Positions 29,452 through 31,114 of a stretch of DNA of 64,000 nucleotides are shown in pieces; position 1 is the stretch's first letter; every line of letters begins with the position of its first letter. Source of the stretch: Sulfurimonas sp. HSL3-7 (GTDB lineage Bacteria; Campylobacterota; Campylobacteria; Campylobacterales; Sulfurimonadaceae). Below the pieces are notes generated by a model. It had not been told where the DNA came from and searched no databases. It saw only the letters and a list, made by a program, of their open reading frames with translations. Location of the stretch: positions 372,001 through 436,000 of the forward strand of contig NZ_CP147919.1 of assembly GCF_039645985.1 (NCBI RefSeq), given 5' to 3'. The position numbers and the translations under genes are program-made.

Positions 29452-29510
29452 TCAGAGTTATTAATGATGTGAGCCCACTGCTGACAAGCATTAACAATGC
29501 AGTGCATGTG

Positions 29511-29526
29511 CGGCACTTAAGTGCCG
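29511..29526. repeat. Perfect 16-bp palindrome between alaS and the CopD-like gene
   Basis: CGGCACTTAAGTGCCG is self-complementary, located 115 nt before the next ATG. It could be an operator or a structural element; there is no T-run. Confidence 0.4.
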
Positions 29527-29640
29527 ACAGCACAATACAGAGAGTCACTAAATGACGAATCGTAAAATGCCGCATCGTAAGTGGACCTAGTGTCAACGCA
29601 GGTCATGGAATTACGTTCATGTCCGTAACAAGGATTTTTT

Positions 29641-30177
29641 ATGAAAGATATAATGGTCGAGTTTTTCTGGAATAATATAGAGATCACCGTATTTTTGCAT
29701 GTGATCAGTGCTGTCATCTGGGTAGGCGGTATGATCGCGATGCGTTTTGCGGCACACTATTCGTTCCAGGAACTAGAGCCTGTACAGCGGCTTCCGCGCA
29801 CAGCTCAGGCGCTGGGCAATCTTTTTGCGATCGTCGCACCGTTTATTGCGATACTTATCGCGACCGCTGTCTTGATGGCAGTCGGCTGGGGTTTCAGAGC
29901 AGCAGCTGTCGATGCGAACAGCAATATCATCGATGAAGTGGCCTACGGCGTATATCAGCTGGTCCATGTCAAAGAGGCGATCTGGATGGTGATGGCGATG
30001 AACTACGGCTACATGGTGTGGCGACTTGTAAAAGCCAAAAAATTCCTTGCTTTGGGTGATATGCCTGCTGCAAAAGAGATGCTGGGAATGATAGGCAAAT
30101 ACCTTGTTCCTTTGAACATTCTTCTCGGCCTTGTCGCTATCTATATGGGCGTGGTACTCAGGTATTCGCATACATAA
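29641..30177 (+). CDS. CopD-like four-helix membrane protein
   Basis: Integral inner-membrane protein with four hydrophobic segments (about 15-35, 60-85, 110-130 and 152-172). It has a conserved-looking FLHVISAVIWVGGMIAMRF first helix with a histidine, LVHVKEAIWMVMAMNYG in the third and a basic cytoplasmic loop. This pattern resembles CopD/DUF2269-type haem- or copper-linked membrane proteins. AAGGA precedes the ATG at 29641. It lies between alaS and maf. Function not established. Confidence 0.65.
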   Translation: MKDIMVEFFWNNIEITVFLHVISAVIWVGGMIAMRFAAHYSFQELEPVQRLPRTAQALGNLFAIVAPFIAILIATAVLMAVGWGFRAAAVDANSNIIDEVAYGVYQLVHVKEAIWMVMAMNYGYMVWRLVKAKKFLALGDMPAAKEMLGMIGKYLVPLNILLGLVAIYMGVVLRYSHT

Positions 30178-30225: not shown

Positions 30226-30369
30226 ATGAACTCTTCTAAACTCCGTCTCTGTTCCCAATCTGAAAGCCGTGCCAAGATCCTGCGTGATGCAGGCATAAGT
30301 TTTGTGCAGTCTCCTGTCGATTTTGATGATATGCCGCGTCAAGAAATCCTCCTAAATGGAGGATTTTAG
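30226..30369 (+). pseudogene. maf: Native 5' end of maf, interrupted (47-residue mini-ORF)
   Basis: An ATG with AAAGGGAGA upstream opens a frame whose first 34 residues (KLRLCSQSESRAKILRDAG and so on) are a normal Maf N-terminus. After VDFDD it runs into the first 161-bp unit, reads 12 foreign residues and stops at TAG 30367-30369, sharing one base with the GTG of the next frame. Its codon use matches neighbouring genes, unlike the copies that follow. Removing exactly 322 bp (two units) would restore an in-frame 188-residue Maf, which argues that this was the original start. Confidence 0.75.
30344..30366 (+). promoter_or_regulatory. Hairpin hiding the Shine-Dalgarno, unit 1
   Basis: A perfect 9-bp stem AAATCCTCC/GGAGGATTT with a 5-nt loop. 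The 3' arm contains GGAGG, 6 nt before the GTG at 30369. Ribosomes finishing the upstream frame would open it. Confidence 0.65.
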
Positions 30370-30530
30370 TGGATAAAGTAGCAAAAATGGACTCTCTTCA
30401 AATTCGACTCTGTTCACAATCGGAAAGCAGAGCCAGTATATTACGTAATGCAGGTATAAGTTTTGTGCAGTCTCCCGTCGATTTTGATGATATGCCGCGT
30501 CAAGAAATCCTCCTAAATGGAGGATTTTAG
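30369..30530 (+). pseudogene. Second maf 5' fragment (53-residue mini-ORF)
   Basis: GTG start with GGAGG 6 nt upstream and a 1-nt overlap (TAGTG) with the previous stop. It encodes DKVAKMDSLQIRLCSQSESR and the rest of a Maf N-terminus, then meets unit 2 and ends at TAG 30528-30530. Compared with the native copy it has many synonymous changes (AGA for CGT, TTA for CTG, ATA for ATC), showing that the protein sequence was conserved while the DNA diverged. Confidence 0.7.
30505..30527 (+). promoter_or_regulatory. Hairpin hiding the Shine-Dalgarno of full-length maf, unit 2
   Basis: Identical to the unit 1 hairpin; GGAGG lies 6 nt before the GTG at 30530 that begins the complete maf frame. Confidence 0.65.
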
Positions 30531-31114
30531 TGGATAAAGTAGCAAAAATGGACTCTCTTCAAATTCGACTCTGTTCACAATCGGAAAGCAGAGCCAGTAT
30601 ATTACGTAATGCAGGTATAAGTTTTGTGCAGTCTCCTGTCGATTTTGATGAGGAACAGATCATCGCAGACTCGCCCAAAAACTTTGTCTATCAGGCCACT
30701 CTGGGAAAGTTCGAAGCCGCCAAAAAAAGCTATGACTACCGTGATATGCCGCTTCTGGTCTCCGACACGGTCGTCACTTCACAGGACAGGATCCTCCGCA
30801 AAGCGAACTCTCTGGAGGAGGCAAGGGAGATCCTGCAGACACAAAGCGGCAGTGTCACTTCGATCGTCACGTGCATGATCTACAAAAGTGAAAAACTGGA
30901 GCTGCTGGACATCTCTTCGACAGACTATCTCTTCGATACCTTTGATACGGATGAACTTGAAGCGTACCTGCACTCGGGCGAGTGGAAGGGAAAAGCCGGC
31001 GGCTGCATGGTCGAGGGGTTCTGCAAGCCCTACATCAGAGAGGTCAAAGGGTATGAATCCTGCGCAATGGGGCTGAGTGTCGAGGTGTTGAAGACCTTTA
31101 TCACTTTACGCTGA
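30530..31114 (+). CDS. maf: Maf family nucleoside triphosphate pyrophosphatase
   Basis: Housecleaning pyrophosphatase acting on dTTP/UTP or modified nucleotides. RLCSQSESRASILRNAGI near the N-terminus is the substrate loop, LVSDTVVT holds the catalytic Asp, and GKAGGCMVEGFC is the late family motif. The first 40 residues are encoded by the replacement 5' end of unit 2, the rest by native sequence. Start GTG 30530 has an ideal GGAGG and TAGTG coupling; ATG 30548 inside the frame is an alternative. The frame is intact, so the gene is probably active, but translation now appears to depend on the two mini-ORFs upstream (inference). Confidence 0.9.
   Translation: MDKVAKMDSLQIRLCSQSESRASILRNAGISFVQSPVDFDEEQIIADSPKNFVYQATLGKFEAAKKSYDYRDMPLLVSDTVVTSQDRILRKANSLEEAREILQTQSGSVTSIVTCMIYKSEKLELLDISSTDYLFDTFDTDELEAYLHSGEWKGKAGGCMVEGFCKPYIREVKGYESCAMGLSVEVLKTFITLR

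Follow-up and report, generated by a model that had tools for sequence, protein, structure and literature searches.

Tandem gene-restoring units in maf of Sulfurimonas sp. HSL3-7 carry a member of a family of ~60-base hairpin elements

The maf gene of Sulfurimonas sp. HSL3-7 is split near its 5′ end by two tandem 161-bp units, each of which carries a hairpin element of ~60 bases followed by a second copy of the maf 5′ end, and the same hairpin recurs in at least ten unrelated targets, maf included. We denote the displaced gene end A, the hairpin element E, the second gene end A′ and the remaining gene B; in the genic cases the order is A, E-A′, B. A′ repeats the gene end lost to A, such that A′ joined to B gives the whole gene again, with A remaining as a displaced fragment. 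E is a family of hairpin elements not described before. Our preferred reading of the tandem maf units, to which we assign a probability of roughly 0.45, is that they belong to a lineage-specific miniature family in which the left end of E would be joined to specific sites and selection would retain the units that repair the gene.

The window, i.e. the whole 64,000-nucleotide stretch of DNA that was analysed, contains the native maf 5′ end (A, + strand, 30226–30327) directly in its native context, downstream of the gene at 29641–30177; before the insertion it comprises 102 nt, or 34 codons, from the ATG at 30226. The insertion site is GTCGATTTTGAT/GAGGAACAG (here and below a slash marks the junction), with the break after GTCGATTTTGAT at 30327 and GAGGAACAG resuming at 30650. 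Between these positions, and also on the + strand, unit 1 (30328–30488) consists of E1 (30328–30386) and A′1 (30387–30488), and unit 2 (30489–30649) of E2 (30489–30547) and A′2 (30548–30649), the latter being joined to B (30650–31114), the PF02545 remainder of maf. Each unit is thus composed of a 59-bp block and then 102 nt of maf 5′ end. The model cores of E1 (30328–30380) and E2 (30489–30541) both score 66.8 bits with covariance model R1 and 60.1 bits with R2, and E1 has GATATG as its left end and ATAAAGTAGCAAAA as its right flank. A′1 and A′2 begin with ATG at 30387 and 30548, with possible GTG starts at 30369 and 30530, and unit 2 supplies the start of the complete Maf protein (PF02545). 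An initial annotation of this DNA had described two tandem units splitting maf, and its layout is correct to the base, as is the one-base difference that it reported between them (30476 C vs 30637 T). Removal of the 322 bp (30226–30327 joined to 30650–31114) gives, as it stated, an uninterrupted Maf ORF of 567 nt, i.e. 188 codons plus stop. In the relatives G001, G003, G004 and G005 (G numbers denote genomes of the host's family, G000 being the host itself, and each species is represented by one genome), maf is uninterrupted.

A and A′ of maf are 82% identical over 104 aligned positions, with an alignment score of 132 as compared with at most 25 for shuffles. Their description as diverged yet protein-conserved is borne out by the codons, of which 21 are the same, 7 differ synonymously and 6 non-synonymously, and the reported convergence toward the site likewise holds, the two copies being identical over the last 33 nt bar one variable base. 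The frame of A runs through 13 codons of E to a TAG stop, and in each unit the preceding frame stops at TAG with a one-base overlap with the GTG start (TAGTG). At yraN (GTGA) and PFK (TGATATG), too, frames from A run into E and stop at the following start or just ahead of it. Such stop/start overlaps make translational coupling possible, and coupled translation across them at several genes is plausible from the reading frames; the GGAGG in the maf hairpin is likely to be the ribosome-binding site of the GTG start. As a separate observation, the displaced end of the DUF523 gene keeps its protein sequence between G000 and G003, with 6 synonymous and 1 non-synonymous codon differences (L119 7066–7125 and L150). 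This constancy is unexpected for dead DNA; it could be due to gene conversion or to continued translation.

The consensus of E spans ~62 bp and reads GATATG-stem-ATAAAGTA-NNATNRATA, in which GATATG and ATAAAGTA are almost invariant and the sequence of the stem is variable. The initial annotation had singled out a 60-bp block with a hairpin at maf, and this part of its claim stands: the stem is 9 bp, AAATCCTCC-TAAAT-GGAGGATTT, with z = −3.9 and none of 200 shuffles equally stable when folded as DNA. Across 47 distinct copies of E, both sides have changed in 13 of the 14 stem pairs, an extent that was reached by 0 of 500 shuffles, and the covariation score of 0.483 compares with 0.219 for shuffled copies and drops to at most 0.17 on sliding the partner by 1–3 columns. 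Folding favours the sense strand in 36 of the 47 copies (31 of 47 with DNA parameters), and more G-T than A-C pairs are present (51 vs 25).

A family-wide DNA search with the 161-bp unit returned 80% matches to its positions 1–64 elsewhere in other genomes. A two-part pattern, GATATGCC-N18-46-GGATAAAGTA, found 8 copies in the host genome and 6 more in G001, G002, G007 and G061, with no match to the pattern read backwards in the same search. R1 recognised E in 16 of the 228 family genomes; its weakest matches may be due to chance, and most copies lie in G000, G003, G002, G014 and G061. R2 finds 24 copies in the host genome; both models are home-made, such that their E-values are rough, and were trained on some of the copies that they find, and most relatives are fragmented assemblies. 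The initial annotation held that occurrence of the 161-bp unit here only would refute its reading; the unit as a whole is indeed confined to the host genome, but its hairpin part is not. The unit is absent from the plasmids, phages and viral contigs searched. In a scan of 84,980 species the exact hairpin gave no match, and a looser pattern gave 44 matches of which only 4 fold like E, all of them in MAGs labelled ‘Helicobacteraceae’ that belong to the host's family; these 4 records fold at −13.3 kcal/mol or lower, whereas the remaining pattern matches fold at −10.6 or higher. The covariance models of Rfam 15 gave no match around maf at E-values up to 5, and at gathering score only rRNA and tRNA matches at 12 E loci. 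E was found only in the host's Campylobacterota family. Other repeats occur in the same genomes. One of these, an intergenic repeat (ACAGAGAGTCACTAAATGACGAATCGTAAAAT plus flanks), follows alaS at 29500–29600 of the window, with an identical copy just downstream of an E at L239 (G000:C1 ~2649.2 kb) and a related one at L242. A second intergenic palindromic repeat (CCAGAGTCGATG...CCGACGTCGG) occurs with or without E in its middle (L120 6750–6960, L096, L099 and L151), and in G014 (L161–L170) E lies inside a longer dispersed repeat with a conserved left flank, GGTGGCAAGAGCCTAAC, in many places.

The initial annotation viewed the units as an element that interrupts a gene close to one end, supplies a replacement end and is present in repeated units at one site, which agrees with what we observe; it also viewed the element as maf-restoring, and since the same hairpin is found with different gene ends in at least nine other targets, E is not maf-specific. 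In the host genome, the first 16 nt of UPF0102/yraN are displaced by three 86-bp units (also G002), the DUF523 gene (2-thiouracil desulfurase family) contains two 129-bp units (also G003), PFK contains one intact and one decayed unit, and an ABC-3 metal permease gene contains three 87-bp units (also G014 and G031, and G061 with a decayed A). Interruption near the 3′ end is seen in metH (also G002 and G003), tRNA-Asp (also G002, G003, G005 and G104) and the 5S genes of three rRNA operons (also G003). Further targets are a hexapeptide-repeat (carbonic-anhydrase-like) gene in G061 and the flanks of tRNA-Asn in G032. The identities of the host's target genes were checked. Overall, the units measure ~86–175 bp, and their coding capacity is limited to the gene-end copies.

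At all ten kinds of site the junction is RAN/G or close to it, the G being the first base of both E and B, and the left end of E is base-precise. E points toward the gene if A is a 5′ end and is antisense if A is a 3′ end (5S, tRNA-Asp and metH); because the orientation flips with the gene end, the geometry of E is constant relative to the site and not to transcription. In 20 A/A′ pairs, not all of them independent, identity is 93% in the 12 nt beside the site and then 79, 73, 75 and 66% (the last beyond 60 nt), a decay away from the site that we liken to attL/attR cores. At 5S, there is hardly any change in the 12 nt at the site, and the flank outside the gene is strongly diverged. The 5S arrays contain units of differing length with older, decayed E on the far side, a make-up that fits serial insertion at the restored site. 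E also occurs without a second gene end, between genes and directly upstream of start codons. Thus, E is separable from the gene end, and the gene-end copy is not an obligatory by-product of E insertion. The proximal A/A′ identity, the 5S arrays and the E copies without A′ are the observations that favour joining at the left end of E followed by selection.

In the mechanism that we propose, E would be a folded, single-strand-type recombination site, whose left end (/GATATG) would be joined to RAN/G sites by a recombinase acting in trans. Units of E and neighbouring DNA would be excised and then inserted, and within genes selection would leave only those units with a working gene end. New units would accrete at the restored site, or unequal crossing-over would copy existing ones, with the outcome of tandem arrays in which older units decay on the A side. 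Expression of maf, yraN and PFK may be kept partly by translational coupling at the stop/start overlaps.

The same junctions may instead be read as duplicative insertion, in which E alone is mobile and makes a long target duplication of variable length (~27–120 bp); exchange between A and A′, by unequal crossing-over and gene conversion, would then build the arrays and keep the site-proximal part alike. Such an origin, which we judge somewhat unlikely, would account for A′ starting at the right end of E and including local non-coding flanking DNA at the permease (G014 and G031), tRNA-Asp (G003) and tRNA-Asn (G032), and for the near identity of tandem units at maf, DUF523, yraN and the permease. 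It would also account for the species-specific synonymous bases that A and A′ of DUF523 have in common in both G000 and G003, as from conversion. It sits poorly, however, with the lack of flanking duplication at intergenic and start-proximal E copies and with the 12 nt at the 5S site that stay alike despite a strongly diverged flank. In addition, no transposition reaction is known to give target duplications that vary so much in length.

Near the start of maf, A, A′ and the G003 gene are about equally distant from one another (77–79%), and the remaining maf of G000 and G003 is 78.5% identical; given these equal distances, the insertion may be an import or date from about the split of the species, with an old insertion and a recent import equally possible. 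Insertions common to species are found at DUF523 (G000 and G003) and yraN (G000 and G002), from which some insertions are probably older than the species. In view of the equal maf distances and of such common insertions, the word ‘foreign’ that the initial annotation attached to the hairpin block is only suggestive, and the mobility of E is not demonstrably current. In these assemblies, with one genome per species, neither a circle nor an empty/filled strain pair nor a recent jump was observed. An explanation with no present mobility would take E as an old host hairpin upstream of genes, the A-E-A′ arrangement having arisen by rare illegitimate recombination with DNA taken up from outside or by replication template switching, followed by vertical descent and unequal exchange. 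Agreeing with this are the E copies directly upstream of intact genes without A (G060, L039:2958–3010; G061 smpB), the insertions common to several species and, at the ABC-3 permease, to several genera, and displaced A copies that still look protein-constrained. We nevertheless consider it unlikely: a base-precise left end with G-containing junctions at ten unrelated sites is unexpected from illegitimate events, E antisense to tRNA, 5S and metH is unlike a gene leader, and the displaced A of DUF523 and yraN adjoins the upstream gene, such that an earlier upstream E would have had no space. For the same two genes, tandem duplication of a copy with an upstream E in place beforehand was also considered and rejected, since their displaced starts come immediately after the upstream gene.

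The initial annotation had further suggested solo remnants; a reading of this kind would derive the units from larger integrative elements that carried replacement ends and then lost their cargo. A displaced fragment together with a restored target is the signature of integrase islands (PMC4383910, PMC8409611), and yet such an origin is highly improbable here. All 24 copies in the one-contig host genome are solo, the permease units have the same start-to-start length across genera (87 bp in G000, G014 and G031), and independent deletions down to one hairpin at ten targets are unlikely. Longer islands bounded by the unit at maf did not appear among the 228 family genomes, nor did a cargo-separated maf N-terminus beyond contig edges; the second Maf matches examined are contig edges or split assemblies.

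The joining proposed above would involve a recombinase. Four tyrosine recombinases are encoded in the host genome, one of which is an integron integrase with a cassette array. No recombinase linked to E or to the maf unit was found from the co-occurrence of integron integrase and Y1 transposase across E-carrying genomes and from the flanks of both genes. The integron integrase has no match over the cut-off in the E-carrying G003, G007, G014, G031, G032, G061 and G104, the Y1 transposase is missing from the E-carrying G002, G005, G013 and G061, and no E lies beside integron integrase or Y1 genes (fetched Y1 flanks of up to 1.5 kb, in E-carrying and other genomes). A stronger proposal is possible but on the doubtful side: a recombinase acting in trans, or a system of single-strand transposition, that has not been described so far would use E as its folded recombination site, take E out together with an adjacent gene end and put the unit into intact alleles at the corresponding place, building arrays at important genes (5S rRNA, tRNA, PFK, metH and maf). 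Against site-specific joining stand the lack of a linked recombinase and, in some units (permease in G031, tRNA-Asp in G003), local non-coding DNA in A′ like that in A, which is also expected from local duplication.

Gene-restoring integration is known for large islands, which encode an integrase themselves and mostly use a single target. The hairpin described here, of ~60 bases and without genes, occupies the ends of at least ten genes, of which some are probably essential; in every case the gene is repaired, and tandem units are frequent. If E is mobile, its recombinase, with a structured site and loose targeting, is still to be discovered, and annotated genomes may bear its traces in the form of short duplicated gene ends. 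If the system acts in trans as proposed, E would represent a class of mobile DNA that persists within genes because it brings exchangeable replacement ends with it. E units also provide housekeeping genes with new start regions, possibly along with coupled leader frames, and annotation pipelines may misread these.

Target-restoring integrative elements include the dusA-specific IMEs and SXT at prfC (PMC8409611), and islands in tRNA genes (Islander) are marked by a displaced fragment and occur in tandem arrays (PMC4383910). The E units resemble such integrase islands in the split target, the diverged replacement end, the displaced fragment at the other end and the tandem arrays (PMC8409611, PMC4383910), as well as in a short identity block at both junctions (~12 nt at 93%, 20 pairs), but differ in that they are only ~86–175 bp, have neither integrase nor cargo, and combine one hairpin family with at least ten targets and an own gene end for each. 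With integron attC sites, E has in common conserved ends, a variable bulged stem, a preferred folded strand beside the exchange point and array-forming units; in contrast to attC, it has no RYYYAAC/GTTRRRY boxes, which are present in the host genome's own cassette array, and no cassette gene. Identity with attC, prompted by an intact IntI (TIGR02249, 409 bits), was rejected on the sequence of the site and on integrase co-occurrence. The chromosomal integron itself lies at L246 1500–16768 (G000:C1 ~1030.5–1045.8 kb), where the integrase adjoins small, oppositely oriented genes with attC-like hairpins between them. Small repeats (MITEs, REP and Rickettsia palindromic elements) are, like E, short, dispersed, non-coding and palindromic, and some insert inside genes (PMC10969869, PMC3733652). 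Unlike IS-derived MITEs, E shows no terminal inverted repeats by inspection and has duplications of ~27–120 bp or none in place of a short fixed one; unlike REP, it has no GTAG head; and it makes no in-frame gene fusion but is followed by a second gene end. Identity with Y1/RAYT repeats was rejected, as Y1 is patchy among E-carrying genomes and Y1 genes are not flanked by E. By the tests made, E units are gene-restoring mini-elements that are distinct from integron cassettes, IS-derived MITEs and REPs, and the recombination system behind them has a fair chance of being new.
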